Of a DNA stretch of 36,660 nucleotides, positions 8,232 to 30,002 are shown piece after piece; the first letter of the stretch is position 1, and each line of letters starts with the position of its first letter. The notes under the pieces are model-generated. The model was not told the origin of the DNA, did not search any database, and saw only the letters and a program-made list of their open reading frames with translations. The DNA lies in the IMG/VR virus record IMGVR_UViG_3300021519_000025, positions 1-36,660 of that record; one strand, given 5' to 3'. A program made the position numbers and the translations under genes. The DNA comes from a virus.

Positions 8232-8310
8232 GGTCCCTTAGCTCAGCTGGAATTAGAGCAACAGACTTCTAATCTGTGGGTCGCTGGTTCGAGTCCAGCA
8301 GGGATCGCCA
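8232..8310 (+). tRNA. tRNA-Arg (TCT)
   Basis: 79 bases with encoded CCA. Acceptor GGTCCCT/AGGGATC, anticodon stem ACAGA/TCTGT with loop CTTCTAA, T-loop TTCGAGT. The D-loop is slightly enlarged (CTGGAATTAGAG). It would read AGA, rare in GC-rich hosts. Confidence 0.9.
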
Positions 8311-8326
8311 ACTTAGGATTTATAAA

Positions 8327-8488: not shown

Positions 8489-8517
8489 TGTACAACTAAA
8501 ATAATATATGATATAAT
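8488..8517 (+). promoter_or_regulatory. Early-type promoter (TAGTGTACA class)
   Basis: GTGTACA at 8488-8494, 17 bp spacer, TATAAT at 8512-8517. TAG is shared with the stop codon of the preceding gene. It starts RNA just before the tRNA at 8526. Confidence 0.8.
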
Positions 8518-8525
8518 AGTTTTAT

Positions 8526-8614
8526 GGTCGTGACGGTGGGTATCGGGGAGGCCCTTATAAAGCCTTTAGCAGTAGATAACTGTTCTTCAGTGGGTTCGAG
8601 TCCCACCACGACTA
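8526..8614 (+). tRNA. Unusual type II tRNA, anticodon TAT by position
   Basis: The acceptor GGTCGTG/CACGACT and the T-arm GTGGG-TTCGAGT-CCCAC are clear, and a long variable arm (CAGT/ACTG) makes it type II. The anticodon loop CTTATAA puts TAT at 34-36, formally Ile(AUA), although bacterial type II tRNAs are normally Leu, Ser or Tyr. The anticodon stem has a C-A mismatch next to the loop. The D region (8535-8548) is short and makes no normal D-stem. No CCA is encoded. Real as a tRNA-derived gene; amino-acid identity uncertain. Confidence 0.7.
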
Positions 8615-8623
8615 CATAGGCGG

Positions 8624-8670
8624 TCCCAGAGTATAAATAAGCAACAAGTAAGACTTATTATACTCTGGGA
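8624..8670 (+). promoter_or_regulatory. Hairpin with late promoter in its stem, controlling the GIY-YIG gene
   Basis: The 5' arm at 8624-8641 pairs with the 3' arm at 8654-8670 with a single bulged A; the loop is CAACAAGTAAGA. The 5' arm contains TATAAATA (8632-8639). The 3' arm ends in GGGA (8667-8670), 6 bp before the ATG at 8677. Read-through RNA would hide the ribosome binding site; RNA started from the late box (about 8645, in the loop) would lack the 5' arm and expose it. T4 I-TevI is controlled this way. Confidence 0.75.
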
Positions 8671-8676
8671 TGCAGC

Positions 8677-9300
8677 ATGTTCTATACGATCTATAAGATA
8701 ACAAATACCGTTAACGGCAAGTACTATATAGGAAAACATCAGACTTTGGATCTAGATGATGGCTATATGGGATCCGGCAAGCTTATTGGAAGAGCTATTA
8801 AGAAACATGGTTTAGAATCATTCGCTAAAGAAATACTATTTGTTTTTGATACTGAAAAAGAAATGAACGTCAAAGAAGCAGAGATTGTAATTGTTTCAAA
8901 AGAAACCTATAATCTATGTGAAGGTGGTAAAGGCGGTTGGGGTTATGTTAATAGTAACCCTGATAAGTTTTTAACCGAAAAAAAGATGCTTAATCTGCGG
9001 TTACAGGGCACAAAAAATATAAAACATCTTATAGAGTATATTAATGATCCTTTACGAGAAAAACAACGTAAAAAAAATTCATTATTAGCTCTTCAAAAAG
9101 CAAGAGAAAAACTTCCATTTCACGGAAGATATCATTCAGAGGAAACCAAACAGAAAATCGGTTATAAAAATTCTATTAATCAGAGTGGTAAAAATAATTC
9201 TCAATACGGTTCAATGTGGATTACTAATGGTAAAGATAGTAGAAAAATAATGAAAAATAAAACCATCCCAGAAGGATGGCAACAGGGACGTATAATTTAA
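8677..9300 (+). CDS. GIY-YIG homing endonuclease (free-standing)
   Basis: A 207-residue protein with the catalytic domain at the N-terminus: YTIYKITNTVNGKYYIGK (residues 3-20) holds the GIY- and YIG-type motifs, followed by YMGSGKLIGRAIKKHG (about 30-45). The middle is Lys/Glu-rich. The C-terminus has SGKNNSQYG and then WITNG...IPEGWQQGR, DNA-binding modules common in phage homing endonucleases. It sits between two tRNA genes, a typical target neighbourhood, and a wrecked second copy lies 1.3 kb upstream. The hairpin in front probably limits translation to late RNA. Confidence 0.88.
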   Translation: MFYTIYKITNTVNGKYYIGKHQTLDLDDGYMGSGKLIGRAIKKHGLESFAKEILFVFDTEKEMNVKEAEIVIVSKETYNLCEGGKGGWGYVNSNPDKFLTEKKMLNLRLQGTKNIKHLIEYINDPLREKQRKKNSLLALQKAREKLPFHGRYHSEETKQKIGYKNSINQSGKNNSQYGSMWITNGKDSRKIMKNKTIPEGWQQGRII

Positions 9301-9310
9301 TTCGAATAAA

Positions 9311-9396
9311 GCCCGCTTGTTGGAATTGGTAGACAAACGAGACTTAAAATCTCGAGGCCATTGGCCGTGCCGGTTCGAGTCCGGCAGTGGGCACCA
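9311..9396 (+). tRNA. tRNA-Leu (TAA)
   Basis: 86-base type II tRNA with encoded CCA. Acceptor GCCCGCT/AGTGGGC, anticodon stem CGAGA/TCTCG with loop CTTAAAA, T-loop TTCGAGT. Confidence 0.93.
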
Positions 9397-9412
9397 TTAT
9401 AGGATGAATAGT

Positions 9413-9649
9413 GTGGAACAGCAAAACGATATTCTAGATATTCTAATCTATGAAGCAGATATTCTAATCTATGAAGCACAGACTAATGAATTTGTAGATG
9501 ACAAATATACGCAACTTGGCGAAATTATGATGCGCGCATACAGAGAAATCTCTGGACTACGTGATGAAGTTGATGATCTGCAAGAATCTCTTTGTTCAAT
9601 TGAAAAGATTGTAGCTGATACTTTTGCTCGAGCAGAAGATGGACGATAA
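9413..9649 (+). CDS. Unknown coiled-coil protein with a 7-residue duplication
   Basis: A 78-residue acidic helical protein. I prefer GTG 9413 because AGGA lies about 8 bp upstream; ATG 9404 is in frame and possible but overlaps the likely ribosome binding site. DILIYEA occurs twice in a row because of a perfect 21 bp tandem repeat (9437-9478). The second half (LRDEVDDLQESLCSIEKIV) looks like a coiled coil. Its end overlaps the dCMP deaminase gene by 11 bp, suggesting coupling. Confidence 0.55.
   Translation: MEQQNDILDILIYEADILIYEAQTNEFVDDKYTQLGEIMMRAYREISGLRDEVDDLQESLCSIEKIVADTFARAEDGR
9437..9478 (+). repeat. Tandem 21 bp repeat, two copies
   Basis: Identical units at 9437-9457 and 9458-9478, in frame, each encoding DILIYEA. 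A partial third unit (GATATTCTA, 9428-9436) precedes them. Confidence 0.9.
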
Positions 9650-10118
9650 TTGGTATAATACTTGGGATGATAAATGGCATCTTCGCTATCTTAAGATAGC
9701 TGCTGAAATAGCTCAATGGTCAAAAGATCCGTCTACTAAAATTGGCGCTGTATGTGTAGGAATGTCTGGTCAGATCCTTTCGCAAGGATATAATGGGTTC
9801 CCGCGCGGAATTGATGATCATGATCAGCGTCTTAATGATAGAGAGACAAAGTATAAGTATACAATTCACGCCGAGATGAACTGTATCTATAATGCATCGC
9901 TTTCTGGCATATCTCTTAACGGTTCTTCACTCTATGTGTATGGACTTCCTATATGTCATGAATGTGCAAAAGGTGTTATTCAGTCTGGTATTAAGAATGT
10001 GTACTGTACATTTGCTGATCTCTCAGATAAGTGGGCAGATTCCTGGGTTCTGTCTCAAGCAATGTTCAGTGAAGCAAAAATAACCTTCGGAATTTTTAAT
10101 ATCGATAGTGTGAAATAG
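9639..10118 (+). CDS. Deoxycytidylate (dCMP) deaminase
   Basis: A 159-residue zinc enzyme converting dCMP to dUMP, the substrate of thymidylate synthase. DPSTKIGAV near residues 29-37 is typical of the family. The zinc site is HAEMNCIYNA (about residues 73-82; His ligand and catalytic Glu) with PICHECAKGV (about 104-113; two Cys ligands). ATG 9639 gives a natural start, MDDNWYNTWDDKW; an upstream TTG in frame is less likely. It works with ThyX (31241) and NrdAB (31946-35560) to feed dTTP synthesis. Length fits T4 Cd (about 190 residues) minus an insertion. Confidence 0.9.
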   Translation: MDDNWYNTWDDKWHLRYLKIAAEIAQWSKDPSTKIGAVCVGMSGQILSQGYNGFPRGIDDHDQRLNDRETKYKYTIHAEMNCIYNASLSGISLNGSSLYVYGLPICHECAKGVIQSGIKNVYCTFADLSDKWADSWVLSQAMFSEAKITFGIFNIDSVK

Positions 10119-10120
10119 TA

Positions 10121-10150
10121 GTGTACAACCACATCGATATATGATATAAT
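10121..10150 (+). promoter_or_regulatory. Early-type promoter (TAGTGTACA class)
   Basis: GTGTACA at 10121-10127, 17 bp spacer, TATAAT at 10145-10150. It lies directly after the stop codon of the deaminase gene and drives the small gene at 10176 and the DNA-binding protein gene at 10380. Confidence 0.82.
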
Positions 10151-10175
10151 AGCTTTAAGAATGGAGATTGATGTT

Positions 10176-10358
10176 ATGAGTAATAGAGATTATGTGCAAA
10201 TCGAGGTTCAGATTGCTGGAAACTGGCAGTCAGCGTCTTCTACGCTGAATGACCCCCAGATATATCTGGCCGAGATGAAGAGCGTGCAGAAGTTATATCC
10301 AGGTCTGCCACGTGTTCGAACTATGGATAGTGATAATCGTCTACTTGACATGCTTTAA
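10176..10358 (+). CDS. Unknown 60-residue early protein
   Basis: I chose ATG 10176 (MSNRDYVQIEVQIAG) because GGAG at 10163-10166 lies 9 bp upstream; the in-frame ATG at 10161 overlaps that site. The N-terminal half looks like beta-strands (VQIEVQIAGNWQSA) and the rest is mixed. Codon use is GC-richer than in its neighbours. No family recognised. Its close tie to a strong early promoter suggests early expression. Confidence 0.55.
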   Translation: MSNRDYVQIEVQIAGNWQSASSTLNDPQIYLAEMKSVQKLYPGLPRVRTMDSDNRLLDML

Positions 10359-10379
10359 TATTAAGAGGAAATGCATAAC

Positions 10380-10652
10380 ATGACTACTACTACCAGCAAG
10401 AAGAAGCTCGTTAACTCGTTTAAGAATGGTTCTGAGTTTACGGCTAATCAGATTGCATCACGATTTGCGGTTGCTAATCCGACCGCTTTGATTACTAACC
10501 TCCGTCAGGCTGGTTATGCAATCTATGCTAACCGTCGGACCAATAGCCGTGGTGAGACTTACACGAAGTATCGTATGGGTCGTCCTACTCGACAGATGGT
10601 TGCTGTCGGCTACACTTTTCTTGGTGCTGACCAGTCCGGTCTTACGAAGTAA
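10380..10652 (+). CDS. Small winged-helix DNA-binding protein
   Basis: A 90-residue basic protein. ATG 10380 is preceded by AGAGGAAA about 8 bp upstream. FTANQIASRFAVANPTALIT (residues 20-39) reads as a helix-turn-helix, with a recognition helix in NPTALITNLRQAGY and a wing in IYANRRTNSRGETYTKYRMG. The layout (N-terminal basic arm, HTH, wing) is that of small phage transcription factors or nucleoid binders. Codons are GC-rich, which may mean high expression. A candidate regulator of the early-to-late switch, but its target is unknown. Confidence 0.65.
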   Translation: MTTTTSKKKLVNSFKNGSEFTANQIASRFAVANPTALITNLRQAGYAIYANRRTNSRGETYTKYRMGRPTRQMVAVGYTFLGADQSGLTK

Positions 10653-10691
10653 CATATATATAACTAAAATCTAAGCGTAGAGTATCTTTGC

Positions 10692-10730
10692 ACGCAGAGT
10701 GATGAACTTGTAAGTCGTGCGTTTTCTTTT
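10692..10730 (+). terminator. Weak intrinsic terminator after the winged-helix gene
   Basis: GCACG pairs with CGTGC around a loop that can form an inner ACTT/AAGT stem, followed by GTTTTCTTTT. It lies directly before tRNA-Asn. Confidence 0.4.
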
Positions 10731-10802
<72 letters not shown>

Positions 10803-10810
10803 CATAGAAC

Positions 10811-10858
10811 CCTTACTAGTATAATAAGCGATAGGTAAGTCTTATTATACTAGTAAGG
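10811..10858 (+). repeat. Solo hairpin element between two tRNA genes
   Basis: Perfect 18 bp inverted repeat: 5' arm 10811-10828, loop CGATAGGTAAGT, 3' arm 10841-10858. It matches the hairpin before the GIY-YIG gene in loop and inner stem, but no endonuclease follows: only ATGTTTCTA remains before tRNA-Thr begins at 10871. Likely scar of a deleted element. Confidence 0.85.
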
Positions 10859-10870
10859 ATTATGTTTCTA

Positions 10871-10945
10871 GCCGAGGTAGCACAGCGGTAGTGCAGGGCT
10901 TTTGTAAAGCTCAGGTCGGGAGTTCGATCCTCTCCCTCGGCACCA
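10871..10945 (+). tRNA. tRNA-Thr (TGT)
   Basis: 75 bases with encoded CCA. Acceptor GCCGAGG/CCTCGGC, anticodon stem GGGCT/AGCTC with loop TTTGTAA, T-loop TTCGATC. Confidence 0.93.
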
Positions 10946-10963
10946 TTTATAAAGTTGAGTAAA

Positions 10964-11527
10964 ATGCCTGCTACGTTTGTAATATCAGACACACATTTTG
11001 GACATGACAATATTTGCAAATTTAAACGTGCAGATGATTCTCCTCTTCGTCCATTCTCTTCGTCACAAGAGATGGATGAAGAGATGATTAAGCGTTGGAA
11101 TGATCGAGTTAGACCTAAGGATAGGGTTTATCATCTTGGCGATGTCCTAATCAACAAGAAACATTTTGGAACACTTTCTAGGTTGAATGGAGATAAAGTA
11201 CTAATCAAGGGTAATCACGATATTTTTGGTCTTAAGTATCTAGAGTATTTTCGTGATATTCGAGGATGCCATGTTTTGAATGGAATGATCTTTAGTCATA
11301 TTCCAGTTCATAAGTCTAGTCTAGGCCGATTTGGCTGTAATATTCATGGACATTTGCATTCTAATAGAGTGTTGACTGAGTCTGGTGATATTGATAAAGA
11401 TTACTTTTGTGTTAGTGTCGAGCATACAGATTACACTCCAATGTTGCTCGAGGATGTATATAAGAATGTTGTAAATCAGGGCGGAGCAGTTGGCTTCCGT
11501 CACGGTAACTATACAGCAGTTACATAA
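10964..11527 (+). CDS. Calcineurin-like metallophosphoesterase
   Basis: A 187-residue protein with the full metal-binding set: DTHFGH (about residues 9-14), HLGDV (about 61-65), GNHD (about 85-88), FSHIPVH (about 111-117) and HGHLH (about 127-131). These motifs bind two metal ions and hydrolyse phosphomono- or diesters. I prefer ATG 10964 (MPATFVISDTHFGH); TTG 10955 in frame is an alternative. It lies between tRNA-Thr and tRNA-Pro. Substrate unknown; small phage members of the family may act on RNA ends or cyclic nucleotides. Confidence 0.85.
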   Translation: MPATFVISDTHFGHDNICKFKRADDSPLRPFSSSQEMDEEMIKRWNDRVRPKDRVYHLGDVLINKKHFGTLSRLNGDKVLIKGNHDIFGLKYLEYFRDIRGCHVLNGMIFSHIPVHKSSLGRFGCNIHGHLHSNRVLTESGDIDKDYFCVSVEHTDYTPMLLEDVYKNVVNQGGAVGFRHGNYTAVT

Positions 11528-11603
11528 CTGAGAGTAGCTCAATTGGTAGAGTACACCGTTTGGGGCGGTGATGTTGCAGGTTCAAGTCCTGTCTCTCAGA
11601 CCA
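11528..11603 (+). tRNA. tRNA-Pro (TGG)
   Basis: 76 bases with encoded CCA. Acceptor CTGAGAG/CTCTCAG, anticodon stem CACCG/CGGTG with loop TTTGGGG, T-loop TTCAAGT. Confidence 0.93.
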
Positions 11604-20167: not shown

Positions 20168-20310
20168 ACTGACAGATTGGTATTGCGCTGCAGCGTAAGA
20201 GGCACAGAGTATATTTTAAACTAGGAAGAGCCGGGATCACGGTGGGGTTCCGCCCGGCCCAATCTGCATTGTTGATTATCAAGGGGAGATCGAAAGATCT
20301 CCCTTTTTTT
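20168..20310 (+). ncRNA. Candidate late small RNA with its own promoter and terminator
   Basis: CAGATTGG (20173-20180) pairs perfectly with CCAATCTG (20259-20266), closing a 94-base domain. Inside are a 6 bp hairpin TTGCGC/GCGTAA with loop TGCA (20183-20198) and a GC-rich hairpin GCCGGG/CCCGGC (20230-20258) with an inner CGG/CCG pair. A late box lies 6 bp before the expected start and a strong terminator ends the unit, predicting an RNA of about 143 bases. No ORF is visible. It resembles a tRNA in outline (8 bp closing stem, then TA, then a hairpin) but has no T-loop. Confidence 0.5.
20284..20310 (+). terminator. Strong intrinsic terminator
   Basis: Perfect 8 bp stem GGGAGATC/GATCTCCC with GAAA tetraloop, followed by seven T. 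It separates replication genes and the small RNA from the late block. Confidence 0.93.
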
Positions 20311-20314: not shown

Positions 20315-20322
20315 TATAAATA
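20315..20322 (+). promoter_or_regulatory. Late promoter box for the virion gene block
   Basis: Exact T4-type TATAAATA just after a terminator, 27 bp before the ATG at 20349. Confidence 0.7.
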
Positions 20323-20348: not shown

Positions 20349-21272
20349 ATGGCAAATCTTTCAGCAGCAGAACTATTAAAGCCGGGTAGAGAATATAGAA
20401 CTGCCGTCATTATAAGAAAAATGAATGACGGTGAAAAATTTGAATTATCTAATGGCAAAACAGTACAATTTAAAAATAGTAAAAAGATTATAGATATTCT
20501 TAAAACCAATAATGCTGCAGCAATTAACAGCATTAAATTTTTAGGTATTGATGATAAAATTTATAAATTGTCAGACATTAAGAAAAATGCTGAGTTTGGT
20601 GGGAAAGGTGACAGAGCTGGTGTTATCAAAGAAGATATGGCACTTAAATCTCTGAATGATCAACTTAATTCTATAAAGAAAAATATTTCAAAATCATTTG
20701 TTCCCATGGATATAAATGGCAAAATTCATAAAGTAATTAGAGCGGAAAGTACTTCAGGAACGCCAAAGTCTGATTTCCATCTAATAGATATCGATGGAAA
20801 AGAATGTGTATGGATATCACATAAAGATGGAAAATCTCCAAAAGATTTTCAACAATGGGGCGGCATATCTCAGAGAATTGAACCACTAATTTTTGGCCAT
20901 CCAGAAACACAAAAATTCATTAAAGATCTAAAAGTAATATATCCTAAAGGTCTACCATCAGCGACATCACTTCGAAGAAAAATTAAAGACAAAAAACTAA
21001 AGATGTTGTCTGTATATGGTAATAAGTTTGGTTCTATGTTAGGTCAACAAAATGTTTCTATTCTTTTACAGGGAAATGTAGAAGTAATATCAGCTGGTTC
21101 TGAGTACAAATTAAAAGCAAATCATGTACACTATAATGGTGAATCTGTAGATGGAAATGGGTTTGATCCTTCATTGCTAGCCGTATTTAAAGGTGATCGA
21201 TCAGATGCTGGTATAAAAGGAACCAGAATTACTATTGCACCCTATGATGGTAGAAAAGCTGAAGATTTCTAA
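20349..21272 (+). CDS. Conserved phage protein, possible PD-(D/E)xK nuclease fold
   Basis: A 307-residue protein. The N-terminal part (MANLSAAELLKPGREYR) and the AEFGGKGDRAGVIKED segment near residues 82-97 recall proteins of other T4-like phages. The central block TPKSDFHLIDIDGKECVWIS followed by HKDG and then FQQWGG (about residues 139-171) places an Asp before a strand and a Lys at the end of the next, as in PD-(D/E)xK nucleases. That is a pattern guess, not a proven fold. It is first in the late operon and its stop overlaps the next start (TAATG). Confidence 0.6.
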   Translation: MANLSAAELLKPGREYRTAVIIRKMNDGEKFELSNGKTVQFKNSKKIIDILKTNNAAAINSIKFLGIDDKIYKLSDIKKNAEFGGKGDRAGVIKEDMALKSLNDQLNSIKKNISKSFVPMDINGKIHKVIRAESTSGTPKSDFHLIDIDGKECVWISHKDGKSPKDFQQWGGISQRIEPLIFGHPETQKFIKDLKVIYPKGLPSATSLRRKIKDKKLKMLSVYGNKFGSMLGQQNVSILLQGNVEVISAGSEYKLKANHVHYNGESVDGNGFDPSLLAVFKGDRSDAGIKGTRITIAPYDGRKAEDF

Positions 21273-21979
21273 TGTATTTTACAGAATTTCTTTCTGAGCA
21301 AAAACGAAAGATACTTCATGTCTTTGACATGGATGAAACACTATTCCATTACCCAGATCCAAAAACTGAAGCTAAGATTCATGTCAAGAATTCAGCTGGT
21401 GAACGAGTAAAGTCTCTTACTAATGTTCAATTCAATAACCATAAATTAGAGCCACATCACAATTATGACTTTTCAGAGTTCAAGTCCTCTGATGTATTTA
21501 CCAAGTCTGCTCATCCTATTAACAAGATGATTAAACGTCTAAAAAACATCCACCGTCGCAATCCGCATGTTGAGATCCTTACAGCGCGTGCAGATATGGA
21601 TGATAAGGATAAGTTTGGATCTCATTTAAAAAAACACGGTATTGATATTAATAAAATTCATGTGCGTAGAGCAGGTAATCTAGATAAAGGAACACCAGCT
21701 GAACGTAAAAAGAGTATTGTTTCTGGTTTAATTAAAAATCATGGCTACGATGAAGTACATCTTTATGATGACTCTCATACCAATCTTAATCATTTTCTTA
21801 GTCTAAAACAGCATCATCCAGATACAAAATTGGTAGCGCATCATGTACAACATAATAAAGATACACACACTACATCTATAAATAAAGCGATAGCAACTAG
21901 TTTAAACCACGAGACTGAGCATGGTGGTTTGTCTTTTTATTCGCCAGACGAGCGTAAGAGAATTAAGGAAAATTCATGA
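21272..21979 (+). CDS. HAD-superfamily phosphatase with capsid-targeting-like leader
   Basis: A 235-residue protein. HAD motif I is HVFDMDETLF (D19, D21), motif II is LTARAD (T104), the motif III lysine is K147 or K148, and motif IV is HLYDDSHTNL (D166, D167). It resembles polynucleotide 3'-phosphatase-type HAD domains, so nucleic acid ends are a likely substrate. The N-terminus MYFTEFLSEQ ends in L-S-E, the kind of site cut by T4 prohead protease, just before the catalytic domain. The next gene overlaps by 4 bp. The C-terminus is His-rich. Confidence 0.75.
   Translation: MYFTEFLSEQKRKILHVFDMDETLFHYPDPKTEAKIHVKNSAGERVKSLTNVQFNNHKLEPHHNYDFSEFKSSDVFTKSAHPINKMIKRLKNIHRRNPHVEILTARADMDDKDKFGSHLKKHGIDINKIHVRRAGNLDKGTPAERKKSIVSGLIKNHGYDEVHLYDDSHTNLNHFLSLKQHHPDTKLVAHHVQHNKDTHTTSINKAIATSLNHETEHGGLSFYSPDERKRIKENS
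21877..21884 (+). promoter_or_regulatory. Possible internal late promoter box
   Basis: Exact TATAAATA inside the HAD gene, about 92 bp before the start of the nucleotidyltransferase gene at 21976. May be chance. Confidence 0.3.
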
Positions 21980-23187
21980 AAACTTTTATGCGATTTATAA
22001 CTGAAGAGACAGAAGAAAAGACAGGTAAGCCTCTTAAGCATCTCACACATGTTGAAGATCACATTATTCATTCTGGCAATGAAGGTGTAAAGAAAGCAGC
22101 TGATGTTCTAGATGATGTGCATAATTCTTTGCTAGGAAAAAAGAGTTCAACGAAAATTAGTACAAAATATGATGGTGCACCTTCAGTAGTATTTGGACAT
22201 CATCCTAAGAATGGTAGATTTTTTGTTGCTACTAAATCTGCTTTTAATAAGAATCCAAAGCTTAATTATACAGAAAAAGACATTGAAGCAAATCATGGTC
22301 ATGCGCCAGGACTTGTTTCTAAGTTAAAGACTGCGTTGAAGCATCTACCAAAGATTGCGCCAAAGCATGGTGTATATCAAGGTGATCTTATGCACACAAA
22401 AGAAGACATCAAGAAGCATGGAAAAGAATTAAGATTTACACCCAATACTATAACCTATCATGCCGATGCTGATTCTGCGCATGGTAAATCAATACATCAT
22501 TCTAAATTGGGAATGGTAGTTCATACCAAATATGAAGGCAAAGGCGATCTAGAACACATGCATGCTACACCACATGTAGATCGTGAGAAATTTACTCATC
22601 ATCCAGATGTGCATAATATAGATCCTACAGTAAAAGCTGATTCATCTCATTATACACCAAAGGAACAGCAAAAATATCATGAGGCTATGAATAAAGCCAA
22701 GAAAACATATCATCATATGGATCCATCTGCACTTGATAAATTAAAGGGCCATGAAGTTGATTTGGAAGCGCATGTAAATGATATGGTGCGTAAGGATGGC
22801 ACACCATCAACATCTGGATATATTAAGCATATTTCTGATAAATCAAATAAAGAAATTGATAAAGTAAAAACAGAAAAATCTAAGCAACAGAGACGTGAAA
22901 AATTAGCTAATACTATTAAACATATCTCTGATCATAAAAATCATTTTGATAAGGCTCTCGAGCTTCACAAACATTTAGCAGATGCTAAAAATGTTCTTAC
23001 TGGTGTAATGGCTAAGAATCAAGAATTTGGCCATACAATTGGCGGGGCCAAGACCGGTCCAGAAGGTGCTGTCGCAGTTACTAAGCATGGTGACATGTCG
23101 AAATTTGTTGATAGAAAGCAATTTTCTAGACAAAATTTCTTAGCCGGAAAAATGCAGCAGGCTAAAAAAGAGGCTCAACAAAAATGA
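21976..23187 (+). CDS. Ligase-like nucleotidyltransferase (KxDG motif) with capsid-targeting-like leader
   Basis: A 403-residue protein. STKYDGAPSVVFG has K64 in K-Y-D-G, the nucleotide-accepting lysine motif of ATP-dependent DNA and RNA ligases. FFVATKS (about 82-88), VYQGDLM (133-139, like motif III) and LGMVVHTKYEG (about 178-188, like motif IV) follow in ligase order. The C-terminal half is helical, Lys/His-rich. I recall related uncharacterised proteins in other T4-like phages. The N-terminus MKTFMRFITEE closely resembles the T4 internal-protein leader MKTYQEFIAEA. It is coupled to the HAD phosphatase upstream and the nucleotidylyltransferase downstream. Confidence 0.65.
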   Translation: MKTFMRFITEETEEKTGKPLKHLTHVEDHIIHSGNEGVKKAADVLDDVHNSLLGKKSSTKISTKYDGAPSVVFGHHPKNGRFFVATKSAFNKNPKLNYTEKDIEANHGHAPGLVSKLKTALKHLPKIAPKHGVYQGDLMHTKEDIKKHGKELRFTPNTITYHADADSAHGKSIHHSKLGMVVHTKYEGKGDLEHMHATPHVDREKFTHHPDVHNIDPTVKADSSHYTPKEQQKYHEAMNKAKKTYHHMDPSALDKLKGHEVDLEAHVNDMVRKDGTPSTSGYIKHISDKSNKEIDKVKTEKSKQQRREKLANTIKHISDHKNHFDKALELHKHLADAKNVLTGVMAKNQEFGHTIGGAKTGPEGAVAVTKHGDMSKFVDRKQFSRQNFLAGKMQQAKKEAQQK

Positions 23188-23801
23188 AAAAATTTAAGCA
23201 ATTCATAGCCGAAGAAAACGATTCACCGAAGAGACCAGCTGTATTAGCTTTTGGTCGTATGAATCCACCTACAACTGGACACTCCGTGCTAGTGAATAAG
23301 GTTCATGAATTGGCTAAGAAGCATGGCGCATATCATGAAGTAGTATTATCTGGATCTCATGATAATAAAAAGAATCCACTAGATTCTGCTACTAAATTGA
23401 AGCATGCCAAGAGATTCTTTCCACATACTAATATTAAATCTGCTTCTAAAACAGAACCTACACTCATGCATCATGCTGCGCGTCTAAGTAAAGCTGGTCA
23501 TGACCATTTAATTATGGTTGCAGGTTCAGATCGAGTTCCAGAGTATGAAAAACTTCTTCATACATATAATGGAAAAGCAGATAAATCAGGTAAAATTCCT
23601 TTTAGTTTCAAGAAAATCTCTGTAGTTTCTGCTGGTCATCGTGATCCAGATTCTGAAGGAGCCGAAGGTATGTCGGCATCAAAAATGAGAGAACATGCTA
23701 AGAATAATAAATTCAAAGAATTTCGTAAGGGTGTGCCAGATCATGTATCTGATGAACATGCCAAGGAATTATTTCATGATGTAAAAAAAAGAATGTCATG
23801 A
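23184..23801 (+). CDS. Cytidylyltransferase-fold enzyme, NMN-adenylyltransferase-like, with leader
   Basis: A 205-residue protein. GRMNPPTTGH (residues 24-33) is the T/HxGH nucleotide-binding motif and MSASKMRE (163-170) fits the ISSTxxR motif of this fold; IMVAGSDRVPEY lies between. This set fits NadM-type NMN adenylyltransferases making NAD from NMN and ATP, although other nucleotidylyl transfers are possible. The leader MKKFKQFIAEE is nearly the T4 leader MKTYQEFIAEA, with I-A-E at the expected cleavage site. It overlaps both neighbours by 4 bp. Confidence 0.75.
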   Translation: MKKFKQFIAEENDSPKRPAVLAFGRMNPPTTGHSVLVNKVHELAKKHGAYHEVVLSGSHDNKKNPLDSATKLKHAKRFFPHTNIKSASKTEPTLMHHAARLSKAGHDHLIMVAGSDRVPEYEKLLHTYNGKADKSGKIPFSFKKISVVSAGHRDPDSEGAEGMSASKMREHAKNNKFKEFRKGVPDHVSDEHAKELFHDVKKRMS

Positions 23802-24232
23802 TGTCTGAAAAAAATAAAGGATTATGGGATAACATACACGCTAAGCGTAATAGAATTAAACATGGTTCTAATGAACGCATGCGCAGACCTGGTGAAAAAG
23901 GAAGACCTACAGCATCAGATTTTAAAGCATCGCAAACAACTAGTGAAGCTAGGTTGCAAATTATTAAAAGAATATTACATGAAGCAAAATATCAAGGCAG
24001 AGAAGTAACACTTAATAAACCAATGGCTGGTGACGTAAAAAAATCTAAAGTATTTGTGCGTGATCCAAGCACCAGCAATATCAAAAAAGTAAATTTTGGT
24101 GATAAAAGTCTAAGTATTAAAAAGCATATTCCGGCTAGAAAAAAATCATATTGTGCCAGATCTTCTGGTCAAGGCAATTTAACAAAAAAGACTAGTGCTA
24201 ATTATTGGTCTAGAAAAGCATGGAATTGCTAG
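23798..24232 (+). CDS. Conserved basic phage protein
   Basis: A 144-residue, strongly basic protein. The N-terminal part (GLWDNIHAKRNRIKHGS, then MRRPGEKGRPTASDF) and the C-terminal part (KKVNFGDKSLSIKKHIPARK, ending YWSRKAWNC) are blocks I recognise from uncharacterised proteins of many tailed phages. Between them, RILHEAKYQG contains L-H-E-A, a possible prohead-protease site near residue 62, so the two halves may be separated during capsid maturation. ATG 23798 overlaps the preceding stop; ATG 23801 is equally possible. Confidence 0.6.
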   Translation: MMSEKNKGLWDNIHAKRNRIKHGSNERMRRPGEKGRPTASDFKASQTTSEARLQIIKRILHEAKYQGREVTLNKPMAGDVKKSKVFVRDPSTSNIKKVNFGDKSLSIKKHIPARKKSYCARSSGQGNLTKKTSANYWSRKAWNC

Positions 24233-24241
24233 GAGCGCAAA

Positions 24242-25558
24242 ATGGCACAGTTCAGAAAAGACACGCATCAATACTTAAATCAAGAAAAGACTATATTTGA
24301 AGTAGTAATGCTTGCAGACCAATATGGTAATCTTGTTGGTCCAGCAAATCCAAGCGGTGCTGCAGTAGATGCTTTTGGTAGAGCTAGAGTGTCATTGCCA
24401 TTTACGCTATTTGACTCTAGTAATAGATATCAAGATAATGGAAAATTTGCAACAGCAAATACTGCTGGCGGAACATATGGGTTTGTATCCAACACAGCTT
24501 CTGTGAATCTTACTGTTAATACAACATCTGGCGCATCGGTCTATAGAGAAAGTTATAGAGTATTTGCATATCAGCCAGGCAAGTCTTTACAGATATTAAA
24601 TTCATTTGTAATGAATCCAGCTAAGGCTAATTTAAGACAAAGAATAGGTTACTTTACTGCAAATAATGGTTTTTTTGTAGAAAGATCTGGTGTGTCGACA
24701 GTATCTTTTGTTAAAAGGTCATATGTTACTGGCGCAGTTGTTGATACTCCGGTTTTACAATCAGATTGGAATGTTGATAAGTTAGATGGAACTGGGCCTT
24801 CATTATTAACTTTAAATTTAGATGATCCACACATCTTATTCACAGATGTAGAATGGCTTGGTGTTGGTTCTGTTAGAATGGGATTTGTGATAAATGGCGC
24901 ACCTATAGTATGTCATATTTTTAATCACGCTAATGTTGACGATGCTGCAAAGGGTGCGTATATGCAGACAGCTTCGCTTTGTGTTAGATATGAAATTGAA
25001 AATACTGGAAGCACTGCAGAATCAAGCATATTAAAGCAGATTTGCTCTACGGTGTTATCAGAAGGTGGATACGAGTTAAACGGAAAACCACGCGACATAG
25101 GTGTAGAACCAGCGTCAGCAAATCAGATCGCTCTTGCATCAATCGGAACATATTATCCAGTGGTATCAATTAGATTGAATCCTAGTTATCTAGATGCTAT
25201 AGTTATTCCAAAAAATATAAATCTATTGCCAATTAATGCCGCTAACTATAGGTATAAACTCATATCGGGCGGCACATTGACTGGTGCTGTATGGGCAAAT
25301 GTTACTACCGATTCTGTAGTGCAGTATAATACTAATACTACAGCTACAATTAGTGGCGGTAATACTTTTACTAGCGGTTATACTGCTGCTACTTCCCAGT
25401 CTAGAGATAGCGTAGATTTAAAAGATAACATTTTTAAGTATCAATTAGAAAGAAACAGTTTTACTTCTACCCCGCTTACATTTACGCTGGCTGTTACTTG
25501 CAGCGCAGCAACAAGCAACGTGTGTGGAAGTATGGCTTTCGAAGAAGTGGTATACTAA
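24242..25558 (+). CDS. Virion structural protein (likely)
   Basis: A 438-residue protein with few Lys/Arg and many Thr, Ser, Asn, Gly and Val, typical of beta-rich phage surface proteins. The segment AFGRARVSLPFTLFDSSNRY (about residues 45-64) is a block I associate with structural proteins of T4-like phages. The C-terminal part has long Thr/Asn-rich strands (TNTTATISGGNTFTSGYT). AGGAG lies 8 bp before the ATG. It has no capsid-targeting leader. Tail, fibre or head decoration cannot be distinguished from sequence alone. Confidence 0.6.
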   Translation: MAQFRKDTHQYLNQEKTIFEVVMLADQYGNLVGPANPSGAAVDAFGRARVSLPFTLFDSSNRYQDNGKFATANTAGGTYGFVSNTASVNLTVNTTSGASVYRESYRVFAYQPGKSLQILNSFVMNPAKANLRQRIGYFTANNGFFVERSGVSTVSFVKRSYVTGAVVDTPVLQSDWNVDKLDGTGPSLLTLNLDDPHILFTDVEWLGVGSVRMGFVINGAPIVCHIFNHANVDDAAKGAYMQTASLCVRYEIENTGSTAESSILKQICSTVLSEGGYELNGKPRDIGVEPASANQIALASIGTYYPVVSIRLNPSYLDAIVIPKNINLLPINAANYRYKLISGGTLTGAVWANVTTDSVVQYNTNTTATISGGNTFTSGYTAATSQSRDSVDLKDNIFKYQLERNSFTSTPLTFTLAVTCSAATSNVCGSMAFEEVVY

Positions 25559-25771
25559 ATGAAAAAACAATTAAAAGAAGCATCAAACCCAGCTCTTATT
25601 CGTGCTAAACTCATCAAACGAATATTAAACACAGCTCATAGTAAATCTGCTCATTTTAAGACTAAAGAAACTGCTGAACTTCAATCGAGAAACTCAGATG
25701 ATCCAGATTCGCGATTGGATGGAACAACTTCAGGTACAAGAATTTATAAAAAAAGCACTCCAGGTCAATAG
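25559..25771 (+). CDS. Small basic protein with capsid-targeting-like leader
   Basis: A 70-residue basic protein starting right after the structural gene stop. MKKQLKEASNPAL contains L-K-E-A, the best match in the window to the T4 prohead-protease consensus (L/I-x-E, then A or G). The rest (KLIKRILNTAHSKSAHFKTK) is Lys/His-rich and could bind DNA; the tail is polar. I predict an internal head protein or scaffold peptide; no family is recognised. Confidence 0.5.
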   Translation: MKKQLKEASNPALIRAKLIKRILNTAHSKSAHFKTKETAELQSRNSDDPDSRLDGTTSGTRIYKKSTPGQ

Positions 25772-25780
25772 ATCTTATAA

Positions 25781-25788
25781 TATAAATA
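25781..25788 (+). promoter_or_regulatory. Late promoter box before the Dps-like gene
   Basis: Exact TATAAATA, 22 bp before the ATG at 25811, in a short intergenic gap. Confidence 0.7.
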
Positions 25789-25810
25789 GTCGAAATATAG
25801 TAGGTAATTA

Positions 25811-26254
25811 ATGGCTGATAATAAATTAGTAGAACAACTTAAGATAGTGCAAGCTTCAACTTTTGCATTATATTTAAAGTGTCATAATTATCACTGGAAT
25901 ATTGAAGGCCCAGATTTTGCTCAATATCATTCATTTTTAGATACTCTCTATAATGAATTATGGACAGCTGTAGATGCTATTGCTGAACATACGCGTACTC
26001 TTCAGGTATATGTACCAGGATCATTGATTAGATTTAAAGAGCTTTCTGTCGTAGATGATGCTACTAGTATACCTAAAGCATTAAATATGCTTTCTAATAT
26101 TCGTGATGATAACCAAAAAGTTATCAGCGTATTAGAAAAAGCTCATGAGTACTCTGAATCTGCTAAGACATATGGCATAACCAATTTTCTAGAAGAGCGG
26201 ATTGATATACATTTTAAGCATGATTGGATGCTTAGGTCTATAACGAAAGCATAG
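25811..26254 (+). CDS. Dps/ferritin-like protein
   Basis: A 147-residue four-helix protein. LYLKCHNYHWNIEGPDFAQY (residues 19-38) and YNELWTAVDAIAEHTRTL (about 45-62) match the Dps family core, with a His and the Asp/Glu positions that form the intersubunit ferroxidase site (H-x3-HW, then D and E in DAIAEH). Dps proteins form 12-mers that bind iron and often DNA. Here the gene is late and lies among virion genes, as ferritin-like proteins do in some other T4-like phages, so it may be a virion component or protect DNA from oxidation. Confidence 0.8.
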   Translation: MADNKLVEQLKIVQASTFALYLKCHNYHWNIEGPDFAQYHSFLDTLYNELWTAVDAIAEHTRTLQVYVPGSLIRFKELSVVDDATSIPKALNMLSNIRDDNQKVISVLEKAHEYSESAKTYGITNFLEERIDIHFKHDWMLRSITKA

Positions 26255-26255
26255 T

Positions 26256-27353
26256 ATGTCAATTGTAAGTCAAGGTAAATTCCTAGGTAAATCAGCAGCT
26301 TTTAAATATAGAAAAGCCGGTGGTATAGACTCTGGTATAAAGTTATCAGCTCAACGTAAAGATAGTCTAGAAAAAAGAGCTATAAATGTTAAGCAAGATA
26401 GCGAAGTTGCAAGAACAAAGGAAGTATCTCGCCGCGAAAAAGAAAGAAAGCAAAGGCAAATTCAAATGGTTAAACGTGTATCAGAAGAGACTAATACAGA
26501 AAAAAGACAAAAAGTTATTGCAGTTGGTCGACCTGACACGGCTAATACACCATTTGAAATTAGTTCTAAACTTAATAAATTATCCCAAATCAAAAATAAA
26601 ATAATCGATGAAAACGAGGTAAAAACAATGACTTTTCAAAAATATCATAATCTGCCAGACTCATTGGTTTCGGCTGTTACTGCTGTCTTAGAAAGAGTAA
26701 AGAATCCTTTCATTGATGATGATAAGAAAATGAAATCAAAGAAAGATGATGATCAGGACGATGACGACGATACGGATATGAAGTCTAAGAAGAACGATGA
26801 TTTAGATGATGAGGATGAAGATGATTCTGATAAAATGATTGGAACCAGCGGCAAGAAGACTAAAGTAGAGTTGAAACCAAAGACACAGTCGGCCAATGAG
26901 GAGCTGAAGGGCAAGCAGCATAAGCTTGACAAGAATAAGAATGGTCGTCTGGACAAGCATGACTTCAAGCTGCTTCGTAAAGAAGAGACTGAGCTAGACG
27001 AAGTTGGTCTCTCCGACGAGGAAACGCAGCGTATTCTGACTAAGTTAAAAGAGAGTGATGATAAGGCTTATAAGTATCGTGATACAGATCCAGCTGATAA
27101 AGATAATGATTATGATGCTACTAAAGACAAGAATCCAGAGCACATTGTAATGCAGCTACGCAAAGCCAAGTCGCTAGGCGCCGCTAATCGTCCTATCCAC
27201 TTTCATGATGGTTCAAAGGTAAAAGTGTCTTCAGCTCATGTACAGAAGGCGCTAGACATGCATGGTTCTTTCAAGAGAGCACCAGCAAAGGACGAGTTTA
27301 CTCAGAAGTTGCAAGCCTCACACTCCTCGTTCAAGAAAGCTCTTGGAGAATAG
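26256..27353 (+). CDS. Chimeric acidic protein with an EF-hand-like loop and internal start
   Basis: A 365-residue ORF. Residues 1-120 are Lys/Arg-rich and helical. A second in-frame start at 26628 (MTFQKYHNLPDSLVSAV, residue 125) has GAGGT 7 bp upstream and begins like a protein type I know from other T4-like phages, so two products are possible. Then comes an Asp/Lys-rich low-complexity stretch (about 158-190), and KLDKNKNGRLDKHDFKLL (about 222-239) with the D-x-N-x-N-G-x-L spacing of a calcium-binding EF-hand loop. From about 26,870 the DNA becomes clearly GC-richer. Probably a virion or scaffold protein. Confidence 0.6.
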   Translation: MSIVSQGKFLGKSAAFKYRKAGGIDSGIKLSAQRKDSLEKRAINVKQDSEVARTKEVSRREKERKQRQIQMVKRVSEETNTEKRQKVIAVGRPDTANTPFEISSKLNKLSQIKNKIIDENEVKTMTFQKYHNLPDSLVSAVTAVLERVKNPFIDDDKKMKSKKDDDQDDDDDTDMKSKKNDDLDDEDEDDSDKMIGTSGKKTKVELKPKTQSANEELKGKQHKLDKNKNGRLDKHDFKLLRKEETELDEVGLSDEETQRILTKLKESDDKAYKYRDTDPADKDNDYDATKDKNPEHIVMQLRKAKSLGAANRPIHFHDGSKVKVSSAHVQKALDMHGSFKRAPAKDEFTQKLQASHSSFKKALGE

Positions 27354-27360
27354 AATAGTA

Positions 27361-27825
27361 ATGAAAAATTTCTTAAGCTTTGTCAAAGCTGAACAGTTAG
27401 ATGAACTATCAAACAATACAATAATATCATATAGAAATAAAGTATCATCTGTTCTCGGACGAAAAGGACAAGCAGATACAAATAAAGCATGGAAACATTC
27501 CGCGGGTCTAAATAGTGCTAGAATAAAATTAAATAATTTGCCTAGTCGAAAACAATTCGGAAGTGATACCAAACAAAAATATTATAGTGATCGTAAAATA
27601 GAATTAGCAAAACAAGAAAAAAGATCAAAAGAAGAAAAAGATCGTACTGCTATAATAAAAGCAAATCGTAAAAAGTATGGTACGCCTCAGCATCATTCTG
27701 ATCCATCTTCGTATGATCGTGATAGTCAGCCAATGAGTCATGCTAAAGGAGCTAATGGTAAAATGTATCCTGATGGTGAATGGTATCCAAAAGCAAATGG
27801 AAAGTGGACCAGGGATTATCCATAA
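27361..27825 (+). CDS. Internal-protein candidate with MKNFLSF leader
   Basis: A 154-residue very basic protein. I chose ATG 27361, 7 bp after the preceding stop, because the leader MKNFLSFVKAEQLDE resembles the capsid-targeting group; L-D-E at residues 13-15 is a possible cleavage site. TIISYRNKVSSVLGRKGQAD (about 19-38) recalls a repeated motif of T4-like phage head proteins. The C-terminal part (YPDGEWYPKANGKWTRDYP) is aromatic and distinctive. Lys/Arg content suits DNA contact inside the capsid. Confidence 0.55.
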   Translation: MKNFLSFVKAEQLDELSNNTIISYRNKVSSVLGRKGQADTNKAWKHSAGLNSARIKLNNLPSRKQFGSDTKQKYYSDRKIELAKQEKRSKEEKDRTAIIKANRKKYGTPQHHSDPSSYDRDSQPMSHAKGANGKMYPDGEWYPKANGKWTRDYP

Positions 27826-27826
27826 A

Positions 27827-27991
27827 ATGAAGAATTTCTTAAGCTTCGTTGAAGCCAAGAAACAAGACAAAAAAAAGAAGTTGGTGCCATCGGCACCAAC
27901 TATTGTCTCTTCTCCTCTAAGAGGCGCCAATCAAGATTATTCCGGCGTAAGCCCAAGCCATGACACCGCTGATTATACGGTAAGTGATTAG
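27827..27991 (+). CDS. Small protein with a duplicated MKNFLSF leader
   Basis: A 54-residue ORF starting 1 bp after the previous stop. Its first seven residues, MKNFLSF, match those of the preceding gene, and the DNA of that stretch is nearly identical, so the leader itself was duplicated. The remainder has a Lys run (KKQDKKKK) and a polar C-terminus (HDTADYTVSD). A perfect hairpin lies inside the gene at 27879-27901. Probably another packaged peptide; no function assigned. Confidence 0.55.
   Translation: MKNFLSFVEAKKQDKKKKLVPSAPTIVSSPLRGANQDYSGVSPSHDTADYTVSD
27879..27901 (-). terminator. Hairpin that would act as a minus-strand terminator
   Basis: Perfect 10 bp stem AGTTGGTGCC/GGCACCAACT with a 3-base loop, inside a small gene. 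On the minus strand it is followed by a T-rich run (CTTCTTTTTTTT), the layout of an intrinsic terminator; on the plus strand there is no T-run. Confidence 0.45.
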
Positions 27992-27995
27992 TAAG

Positions 27996-28003
27996 TATAA
28001 ATA
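27996..28003 (+). promoter_or_regulatory. Late promoter box before a structural gene
   Basis: Exact TATAAATA, 32 bp before the ATG at 28036. Confidence 0.7.
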
Positions 28004-28035
28004 TCAAAAGAAATTAGATTCAGGAGAATAACAAA

Positions 28036-28773
28036 ATGGCGCAATACGGTAGAAACGATCAGGCTGTTACAGCAAACAGTACTACGACAAGGGAAACCTC
28101 TATTGGTGCTCCAATTGGCACATATGCACTAGTATTGAAGGGCGGCGGCGCAAACGCGCATTTTGGTAATACCTCTGCTGGATCACGTGCTGCCACCGAC
28201 TTTAATATGTTTAGCAATGTTACTCCGGGCGCATTCATTAATAATATGGCTACTGGCATTTTCGGTGTATCTGCTACAGAAATGGCAAATAATACGACTA
28301 ATAAAGTTGCTGATCAGCCAGCACATGCTGGTTGGGTATATCGTAAGGCTGGAACAGGACCTGTTGTTACAGTGAGTATGACTGCAACCGGTGCTAGCGC
28401 ATATAATAACGCCGACGTTCTTGTTGCTAAGTCCACACAGGCTGGTGGAAATGCGACAATCTCGTTCGTTACTAATTCTACTGGTGGCAGTTTATCATTT
28501 ACAATTGCTAGCCCTGGCGCTGGATTCTTAGTTACAGCCATTCCAGTATCAAATTTAGTAATTACAAATTCTACTGGTGGAACTGCTGCAGGTAATTCTA
28601 CAGTAACTAATATTACAGTAACAGCAGGTGGCAGAGCCGGACGTGTACACACAGAAACTTTAGTAGCATTTGGTTCGCTTGGTTCAAATACAACTTCATC
28701 TACTGGTGTCGTTGGTGATCCTGCTACGGTTGCTGATTCGTCGGCCGATAACACATACTACCCAGGTAGATAA
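28036..28773 (+). CDS. Virion structural protein with inserted beta domain (likely)
   Basis: A 245-residue protein rich in Gly, Ala, Thr, Ser and Asn with almost no Lys. The N-terminal block MAQYGRNDQAVTANSTTTRE and GAPIGTYALV, with HFGNTSAGSRAATD, resembles structural proteins of T4-like phages. Residues about 109-205 form a Thr/Ser/Gly-rich insert (VTVSMTATGASAYNNADVLV) of the kind found as extra beta domains on phage surfaces; the block GGRAGRVHTETLVAFGSLG then resumes. A strong ribosome binding site (CAGGAG) and a late box suggest abundant late expression. Confidence 0.65.
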   Translation: MAQYGRNDQAVTANSTTTRETSIGAPIGTYALVLKGGGANAHFGNTSAGSRAATDFNMFSNVTPGAFINNMATGIFGVSATEMANNTTNKVADQPAHAGWVYRKAGTGPVVTVSMTATGASAYNNADVLVAKSTQAGGNATISFVTNSTGGSLSFTIASPGAGFLVTAIPVSNLVITNSTGGTAAGNSTVTNITVTAGGRAGRVHTETLVAFGSLGSNTTSSTGVVGDPATVADSSADNTYYPGR

Positions 28774-28795
28774 TACCTGTTTGGTATGATTTAAC

Positions 28796-29044
28796 ATGAC
28801 CGATAATGCAAAAAGAACTTCAGAGCTGCCAACTGCTAATACTATTGGCAGCTCTGATAGATTAGTATTTCTCTATCAAGCAAATGCATCTTCACCATCA
28901 ACTCGTACTATTACTCGCGCAAATTTTATTAAAAATGTAGTACCTGGTCCATATACAAATGATACGAATGCATCAGTTGCTGGTGTCGCGGTTCTAGGAC
29001 TCTACTATGACAGTACAGGATTAGTGAGGATTAGATTAATATAG
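28796..29044 (+). CDS. Small structural protein (likely)
   Basis: An 82-residue protein. AKRTSELPTANTIGSSDRLV (residues 5-24) is a pattern I associate with N-terminal segments of small structural or fibre-related proteins in T4-like phages. The rest is Thr/Ser/Asn-rich with a hydrophobic strand near the end (VAGVAVLGLYYDSTG). No leader. Located between structural and head-associated genes. Confidence 0.5.
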   Translation: MTDNAKRTSELPTANTIGSSDRLVFLYQANASSPSTRTITRANFIKNVVPGPYTNDTNASVAGVAVLGLYYDSTGLVRIRLI

Positions 29045-29051
29045 TATTAAT

Positions 29052-29441
29052 ATGAATGAAAAACTTACTGATGATAATTTTTTAATATACGCTGCTAAAC
29101 ATTATGATACATCCTATTGTTGCTCTACTGATGAGTTTTTACAAGATTTAAAAAGACTCAAGTATATTAAAAAATTATTAACTAGATATAATGAAGATGG
29201 TGAACTTAAAGAACAATTGATATTAAATCATATCATCGTGCTCAATAATGTTTTTGGTGCTGAGCATGCTTGTAGAATATTATATCTAAAACTTAAAAAA
29301 TATTTTGAACAGATTATACCATTTCTAGTGCTTTTAAATATCCTGCCTGATAAAATGTATAATATTGGTGTTGATAATATAATTCATCTTGATACTATAA
29401 TTATGGATTCTAATATAGTCGACAAACTTAGAAAGATCTAG
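29052..29441 (+). CDS. Conserved helical phage protein
   Basis: A 129-residue, mostly helical protein. DDNFLIYAAKHYDTSYCCST (residues 7-26), DLKRLKYIKKLLTRY (about 32-46) and LKEQLILNHIIVLNNVFGAE (about 52-71) form a block I recognise from conserved proteins of T4-like phages of unknown role. It starts 7 bp after the preceding gene and is followed 2 bp later by a leader-bearing small gene. Confidence 0.65.
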   Translation: MNEKLTDDNFLIYAAKHYDTSYCCSTDEFLQDLKRLKYIKKLLTRYNEDGELKEQLILNHIIVLNNVFGAEHACRILYLKLKKYFEQIIPFLVLLNILPDKMYNIGVDNIIHLDTIIMDSNIVDKLRKI

Positions 29442-29443
29442 GA

Positions 29444-29623
29444 ATGAAAAAATTATTAGAAACAGAATCAGTAGTACCAGTGAATGCTATGGGTGCTTCT
29501 TCTTCATCATCAGGTCCAATCCAGACATACGATCCACTGTTGAAAATCAAAAAGAATAAGCTTAAAAAATTCTCAAGCATGTTTAAACGTAAACAGTTGG
29601 AAAGTACTAATGGCAAGTCATAA
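29444..29623 (+). CDS. Small basic protein with capsid-targeting-like leader
   Basis: A 59-residue ORF starting 2 bp after the preceding stop. The N-terminus MKKLLETES contains L-L-E near residue 6. A Ser-rich linker (ASSSSSG) and a basic C-terminus (KIKKNKLKKFSSMFKRKQ) follow. Its last 14 bp overlap the next gene. It fits the packaged-peptide pattern of this region but has no recognised family. Confidence 0.5.
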   Translation: MKKLLETESVVPVNAMGASSSSSGPIQTYDPLLKIKKNKLKKFSSMFKRKQLESTNGKS

Positions 29624-30002
29624 ATATAATAATAATTCGAATCTTAATAGAAACTTAGAAAAATTATCTGAAATTCAATCAGACATTAGTAAGATATTAG
29701 CCGTGCACGAAGAAAGACTAAACCAACATGAGAAAACAACAGAGACTATAGTAGCTGGTTTAGAAAAACGTAGAATAGAAATAAATGCTGTTACATCAGA
29801 TTTTTATAAGGTTCTCGATACAAAAGCAGACAGAATTATGCTTGAAATCAAAGAAAATTATGTTAAAACTGCAGAACAACATGGTAAATTGCGCGATAGA
29901 ATGGTTAGTTTTGAAAAGTATATCTGGATGGCAATAGGTGCCAGCGTAGGACTCAGTTGGATATTTTCGTTCGTGGTAAACTTTCATAATCTGACAAAAT
30001 AG
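29610..30002 (+). CDS. Coiled-coil protein with C-terminal membrane segment
   Basis: A 130-residue protein with a long amphipathic N-terminal part (LEKLSEIQSDISKILAVHEE and then LNQHEKTTETIVAGLEKRR) predicted to form a coiled coil, and one membrane segment near residues 106-123 (YIWMAIGASVGLSWIFSFVV). The layout is that of small phage membrane-anchored proteins such as XhlA-type holin partners. It may help lysis or anchor a complex to the inner membrane; this is inference from layout. Confidence 0.6.
   Translation: MASHKYNNNSNLNRNLEKLSEIQSDISKILAVHEERLNQHEKTTETIVAGLEKRRIEINAVTSDFYKVLDTKADRIMLEIKENYVKTAEQHGKLRDRMVSFEKYIWMAIGASVGLSWIFSFVVNFHNLTK

Follow-up and report, generated by a model that had tools for sequence, protein, structure and literature searches.

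The internal proteins IPI, IPII and IPIII of phage T4 are basic cargo proteins that, like those described here, begin with a short N-terminal leader carrying aromatic residues at positions 4 and 7, isoleucine or leucine at 8 and glutamate at 10, with a cut site of the gp21 type; by mutagenesis, residues 4 and 7 of this capsid-targeting sequence act in targeting and residues 8 and 10 in processing (PMC9026906). T4 Alt, itself a packaged enzyme, is a precedent for enzyme cargo. Head proteins are likewise packaged in phiKZ and SPN3US, where propeptides are removed by a gp21-related prohead protease (PMC9026906), but the cut motif there is S/A-x-E and a short T4-type leader is absent. Cyanophage virions (S-SCSM1, S-CREM2, S-SZBM1, S-SM1) have yielded a nicotinamide mononucleotide (NMN) adenylyltransferase (NMNAT)/cytidylyltransferase, a kinase, an S-adenosylmethionine (SAM) hydrolase and Cas9, the first of these from the same nucleotidyltransferase family as an enzyme treated here. 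The present analysis concerns a 36.7-kb genome fragment of a marine T4-like phage (IMG/VR record IMGVR_UViG_3300021519_000025; its full length is called the window), in which an island of genes between gp41 and gp61 encodes a HAD-superfamily phosphatase-like protein, a DUF6267 ligase-like protein and a HIGH-type nucleotidyltransferase. An earlier note on this DNA had likened the N-termini of these and other island proteins to the T4 capsid-targeting sequence, and the likeness is in part borne out, by matches at the key T4 residues, occurrence on unrelated families, the form of the gp23 cut site, late promoter elements and published virion detection in relatives. We consider it very probable (about 0.84) that the leader is a T4-type capsid-targeting sequence, and the prediction that the three window enzymes are capsid-targeted holds with high confidence.

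All seven N-termini listed in the earlier note are present at open reading frame (ORF) starts in the window. The leader said to be shared among them is canonical on the three enzymes, near-canonical on two further proteins and weak on the remaining two (slashes mark predicted cut sites):

21272..21979, + strand, HAD-superfamily phosphatase-like protein with leader MYFTEFLSE/Q (phrog_415, HAD residues, Foldseek)
21976..23187, + strand, DUF6267 ligase-like protein with leader MKTFMRFITE/E (PF19782, KxDG, AlphaFold2 (AF2) model)
23184..23801, + strand, HIGH-type nucleotidyltransferase (cytidylyl/NMN adenylyltransferase-like) with leader MKKFKQFIAE/E (phrog_3041, PF01467)
25559..25771, + strand, basic protein of 70 amino acids (aa) with weak leader MKKQLKEA (strict motif failed)
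27361..27825, + strand, basic protein of 154 aa with near-canonical leader MKNFLSFVKAEQLDE
27827..27991, + strand, 54-aa protein with near-canonical leader MKNFLSFVEA, a leader type common to 27361
29444..29623, + strand, 59-aa protein with weak leader MKKLLETES, a relative of virion-annotated S-SCSM1 ORF97

The original rule, L/I-x-E within the first 15 residues, was loose as stated and was dropped for one based on T4 mutagenesis. This strict motif is a regular expression (regex) built from the T4 residues, with aromatic/F-Y-L at positions 4 and 7, I/L/V/M at 8 and E at 10. In the window it matches the HAD protein (MYFTEFLSE, with one residue fewer ahead of the first aromatic), the DUF6267 protein (MKTFMRFITE) and the nucleotidyltransferase (MKKFKQFIAE). 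Proteins 27361 (MKNFLSFVKAEQLDE) and 27827 keep the F4/F7 aromatics with the glutamate displaced, and 25559 and 29444 fall outside the motif and are too weak to be counted by themselves.

This motif occurs far more often than chance would give. Of the 2009 N-termini called in 16 genomes or contigs 51 carry it, against 18 of 9354 internal methionines (odds ratio 13.5, p=1.5e-24). Among 1982 IMG/VR genes, a set enriched for the leader since its loci were fetched by cassette genes, 269 match it, compared with 5 that match the motif in reverse. In T4, taken as the positive control, the regex selects ipII, ipIII and gp61.1 out of 256 gene calls. T4 gp61.1 (NC_000866, 18966-19130), a 54-aa protein of unknown function in the same gp41-gp61 slot, has the canonical leader MKTFKEFIKED and may be an unrecognised T4 internal protein. 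To avoid circularity, homologues were also recruited from viral contigs with domain alignments trimmed of the leader; the strict leader was present on 96/123 DUF6267, 45/99 nucleotidyltransferase and 7/13 HAD homologues found by this leader-blind search. Among isolates, Melnitz comes nearest to having a leader on its DUF6267 protein, in a looser form. An expectation-maximisation (EM) motif search on the homologue N-termini, with the methionine removed and no pattern supplied, returned F(89%)-x-x-[FY](91%)-[LI](95%)-x-E(93%) for DUF6267 and a nearly identical motif for the nucleotidyltransferase, the HAD set being too small for a motif to emerge from it alone. The unsupervised consensus, M-x(1-2)-F-x-x-[FY]-[LI]-x-E, reproduces the four key residues of the T4 capsid-targeting sequence.

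The leader also behaves as a module. With the leader removed, the proteins that bear it fall into ~35 sequence clusters, nine of them with at least two members and a few of the singletons likely chance matches; these clusters include an adenylate kinase (PF00406, 3e-41), an NT5C-like HAD protein and several unknown basic proteins. On one contig (L263), four consecutive unrelated genes, one of them a HAD homologue, start with MKTFKEY[LI], and in fusions of DUF6267 with the nucleotidyltransferase the leader stands at the N-terminus with none at the junction. Mere family conservation was considered as a source of the shared leader and is ruled out by its presence on unrelated clusters and its restriction to the N-terminus in the fusions. 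The mature parts of the leader proteins are basic (median isoelectric point 9.4, versus 5.7 for other genes), and in the AF2 model of DUF6267 (predicted local distance difference test score, pLDDT, 90) only residues 1-20 fall below 50.

Virion data published for relatives are statistically linked with the leader. The S-CREM2 virion list (PMC10665884) contains a SAM hydrolase, the small protein ORF13, an APH-like kinase and a cytidylyltransferase, whose leaders read MKDFDSFLEE, MKDLHSFLTE, VKRFDAFLTE and MKNFSSFLTE, respectively, so that the virion enzymes of this phage are leader-bearing; ORF136, with a looser leader, is listed as well. Four of the five strict leader genes of S-CREM2 are thus in its virion list (Fisher p=0.0014 among non-structural genes), and the fifth, with an in-gene GTG start, is probably spurious. 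The Cas9-annotated S-CREM2 virion protein (OR473000, 7704-10313) has a leader-like KPLRFASFMAEAA near residue 17. In S-SCSM1, the gp41-gp61 interval holds ORFs 89, 90, 91, 92, 93, 95 and 97, each of them virion-annotated. ORF91 is the nucleotidyltransferase (leader MKSFLQFLKE), and its S-SZBM1 counterpart, S-SZBM1_140 (leader MRFRQFIIE), was detected in virions along with its island neighbours 136 and 139 (PMC9602691, PMC9146016); in both phages the gene lies in the same gp41-gp61 island as in the window. S-SCSM1 ORF90 was considered as a DUF6267 homologue and ruled out by BLAST, which leaves a virion DUF6267 unsupported there. A cytidylyltransferase is also present in S-SM1 virions (PMC3037559).

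The capsid protein of these phages points the same way. The gp23 cut sites of relatives, predicted from sequence, have the form of the leader (FLSE/A, FLTE/S, FLAE/A, ILTE/A, LLTE/A), and seven longer relatives carry gp21 together with a gp23 whose predicted cut site is of the [LI]-x-E form. Separately, the 29444-29623 protein, S-SCSM1 ORF97, the N-terminus of S-CREM2 ORF160 and S-SZBM1_134 resemble the stretch of gp23 just past its cut site (APTNAVG...GPTAGFDP); two of these small gp23-like proteins are annotated or detected in virions, and they are possibly mimics of the capsid protein N-arm.

The window has T4-type replication genes around the island, in the order gp43 (14734), uvsX (17509), gp41 (18571), the island (20349-30002), gp61 (30059), thyX, nrdA and nrdB; the genes scanned in this fragment include none recognised as a head gene. 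The earlier note had named a lack of enrichment near head genes of related phages as a refutation, which was an ill-chosen test: the leader is concentrated between gp41 and gp61, away from the head genes. It occurs on 37/290 genes between gp41 and gp61 versus 10/1517 elsewhere (p=6e-22; S-CREM2, in which gp41 and gp61 are far apart, is left out of this count). The remaining features of the window island are:

20281..20306, + strand, terminator-like hairpin, intrinsic, with an 11-bp stem followed by the T tract TTTTCTTTTA, closing the gp41 side
20315..20322, + strand, T4-type late promoter element TATAAATA, 34 nucleotides (nt) upstream of the first island gene
20349..21272, + strand, first island gene, 307 aa, phrog_13937, function unknown, without a canonical leader
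23798..24232, + strand, leaderless basic protein of 144 aa, the C-terminal part of which is fused to the nucleotidyltransferase in Melnitz
24242..25558, + strand, virion structural protein family phrog_1645 (match 8.5e-121)
25781..25788, + strand, TATAAATA element, 30 nt upstream of the Dps/ferritin-like gene
25811-26254, Dps/ferritin-like gene inside the island, with its own TATAAATA element
27996..28003, + strand, TATAAATA element, 40 nt upstream of gene 28036

The hairpin (20281-20306) and the TATAAATA element at 20315 stand between the replication genes and the island, and the window holds 13 such elements versus 5.8 expected. Across genomes, TATAAATA lies within 200 nt upstream of 9/30 DUF6267 and nucleotidyltransferase genes versus 0/93 early genes (gp43, uvsX, gp41, gp61, thyX, nrdA and nrdB; p=1e-6); the capsid and tail genes gp22, gp23 and gp18 often have it upstream too, and NATAAATA has been reported as the late promoter of T4-like cyanophages (PMC2984593). 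The exact TATAAATA was not found upstream of T4 61.1, ipII or ipIII within the range searched. The island often has a T4-type late promoter of its own amid replication genes, which fits packaging because loading into proheads requires late expression.

Three further observations concern the surroundings. Gene 28036-28773 starts with MAQYGRND, comparable to MSLYGRTD of S-SZBM1_136, a strongly detected virion protein at the same island position. The C-terminal module of the 23798-24232 protein (KSFCARM...DPDSRINK.LRKWNC; DUF6321/phrog_11180-like) recurs on several leader proteins of relatives and is the module that sits behind the nucleotidyltransferase in the Melnitz fusion. Twelve tRNA genes lie within 6415-11603.

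Family and motif matches agree with the carriers named in the earlier note, namely a HAD phosphatase, a ligase-like protein and an NMN-adenylyltransferase-like protein. The HAD protein (21272) contains the DxDxT, Ser/Thr, Lys and DD set of its superfamily, with catalytic residues D19, D21, T23, T104, K146, D166 and D167 invariant among 15 sequences, a Foldseek match to a HAD domain (2.8e-5) and a weak match to phrog_415 polynucleotide kinase (1.9e-9). The DUF6267 protein (21976) matches PF19782 (5.9e-95), and K64-x-D66-G67 (KxDG) and EGxV (E363, G364, V366) are invariant among 39 sequences. The protein encoded at 23184 matches phrog_3041 (2.1e-58) and, just above the cut-off, PF01467 (1.9e-4), and its motifs GRxNPPTxGH (NPP[TH]xGH) and SASKxR (SAS..R), conserved among six sequences, place it in the HIGH-type nucleotidyltransferases at broad-family level. 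Searches of the PDB by sequence gave no meaningful relatives of the HAD, DUF6267 or nucleotidyltransferase proteins.

As to what such cargo might do, our best guess is that it helps to take over the host early or to counter its defences; in T4, genes of the gp41-gp61 slot include anti-toxin genes (PMC9391042), which makes a counter-defence role reasonable to expect. Because a phosphatase, a ligase-like protein and a nucleotidyltransferase are encoded by genes that overlap at their ends (21976-21979 and 23184-23187), and because the last two are often fused in relatives, repair of nucleic-acid ends is taken as the likeliest task, though at less than even odds; the fusion in itself suggests that DUF6267 and the nucleotidyltransferase work together. 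The fold comparison weighs against this guess, since the best Foldseek matches of DUF6267 are mostly DNA/RNA ligases but weak (E 0.016 or worse). An alternative that keeps the packaging assigns the cargo to nicotinamide adenine dinucleotide (NAD) metabolism, with an NMNAT refilling NAD+ pools depleted by host defence, the HAD protein acting as a nucleotidase and DUF6267 as an adenylate-transferring partner. Published annotations name homologues of the nucleotidyltransferase NMNAT, with a proposed role in raising NAD (PMC9602691, PMC10665884), the HIGH-type motifs are conserved, and an NT5C-like HAD protein and an adenylate kinase likewise bear the leader; however, the Pfam match is to the broad CTP_transf_like family, the PHROGs label is cytidyltransferase, the PDB gave no sequence relative of this protein and DUF6267 resembles a nucleic-acid ligase. 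We regard a role in NAD metabolism as unlikely, although with end repair it is one of the two main candidates.

A more distant alternative dispenses with packaging and takes the motif for an assembly or membrane-binding helix, with virion detection due to contamination of CsCl preparations by abundant late proteins. The motif is indeed modelled as a short helix, and those who published the virion data were unable to rule out carry-over; this account is nonetheless improbable, since the motif equals the T4 capsid-targeting sequence at four tested residues as well as the site at which gp23 of these phages is predicted to be cut, and since in S-CREM2 the leader marks the virion-detected proteins whereas most other non-structural genes went undetected. 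Chance or low-complexity Met-Lys similarity, to which 25559 and 29444 conform in being no better than loose-pattern expectation, is very improbable overall and is refuted for the three enzymes by the motif controls (13.5-fold odds over internal methionines; 269 versus 5 against the reversed motif) and by the concentration in one island.

Several points, besides the possible carry-over, weigh against capsid targeting of these enzymes. The window phage's own gp21 and gp23 are unseen in this fragment, both being found in longer relatives; the leaderless DUF6267 protein of S-SZBM1 (141) is absent from published virion detections, and no DUF6267 or HAD member is recorded in the published virion data examined. 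About half of the nucleotidyltransferase homologues are without the strict motif, and the leader is degenerate or lost in some phages, such as HTVC008M, which has no strict leader. The homologues are not independent, which makes all p-values given here optimistic. In the HTVC008M island (L039) the leaders seem degenerate, with the aromatics retained and the cut site shifted downstream (MLSFTGYSNLSEA, MKSFKDFQNVNE), a pattern hinting at a two-part signal.

With capsid targeting as the preferred reading, the following course is envisaged for the window phage. The island genes would be transcribed late, as the promoter elements suggest; the leader would bind the scaffold core and bring the enzymes into the prohead, a step supported by the motif statistics and the virion data of relatives; the gp21 protease would then cut after [LI]-x-E, judging by motif identity, freeing the mature enzymes among the packaged DNA; and on the T4 precedent they would enter the host with the genome. 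Targeting, cutting and injection are in this phage inferred steps. Because the tag recurs on many families of relatives, including enzymes from purified virions, it is probable that these phages bring preformed enzymes into the host cell. A wider proposal, to which we give less than even odds, is that in marine T4-like phages (Kyanoviridae and relatives) a general, swappable capsid-targeting tag delivers, at genome entry, a conserved kit for nucleic-acid end repair, made up of the HAD phosphatase, the DUF6267 ligase and the nucleotidyltransferase, together with effectors that vary (SAM hydrolase, kinases, adenylate kinase and even Cas9).

The finding reaches further than the earlier note had it, since phages of this group use the leader generally, but the idea that their virions carry enzymes is an older one: the enzyme kit, which the note took to be new, is so in part, NMNAT-like proteins having already been reported from cyanophage virions by authors who were unable to exclude carry-over. 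The tag system is already known from T4, and its wide deployment across a conserved cassette of enzymes seems to be unreported in the open literature, where capsid targeting in cyanophages led to a T4 review only and DUF6267 to nothing (subscription papers lay outside this scope, and a prior report there is possible). The internal proteins of T4 are small, differ between lineages and inhibit type IV restriction enzymes, in contrast to the conserved enzyme set found here in the gp41-gp61 island of marine T4-like phages. The repair enzymes of T4 are made after infection and are not known to be packaged. A 3'-phosphatase-type HAD protein and a KxDG ligase-like protein would form an end-repair pair like that of T4 polynucleotide kinase and RNA ligase in tRNA repair, with DUF6267 a putative ligase by likeness of motif and fold. 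The cyanophage virion reports named no targeting signal and left contamination open, whereas the leader offers a mechanism and a prediction: ambiguous virion enzymes become subject to a testable rule, by which a ten-residue tag predicts packaged and delivered proteins. Such a rule would apply to the unknown proteins, numbering in the hundreds, of marine T4-like phages, which are abundant; if true, it would allow a large set of candidate early effectors and counter-defence proteins to be picked out by sequence alone and would supply natural tags for loading enzymes into phage heads.

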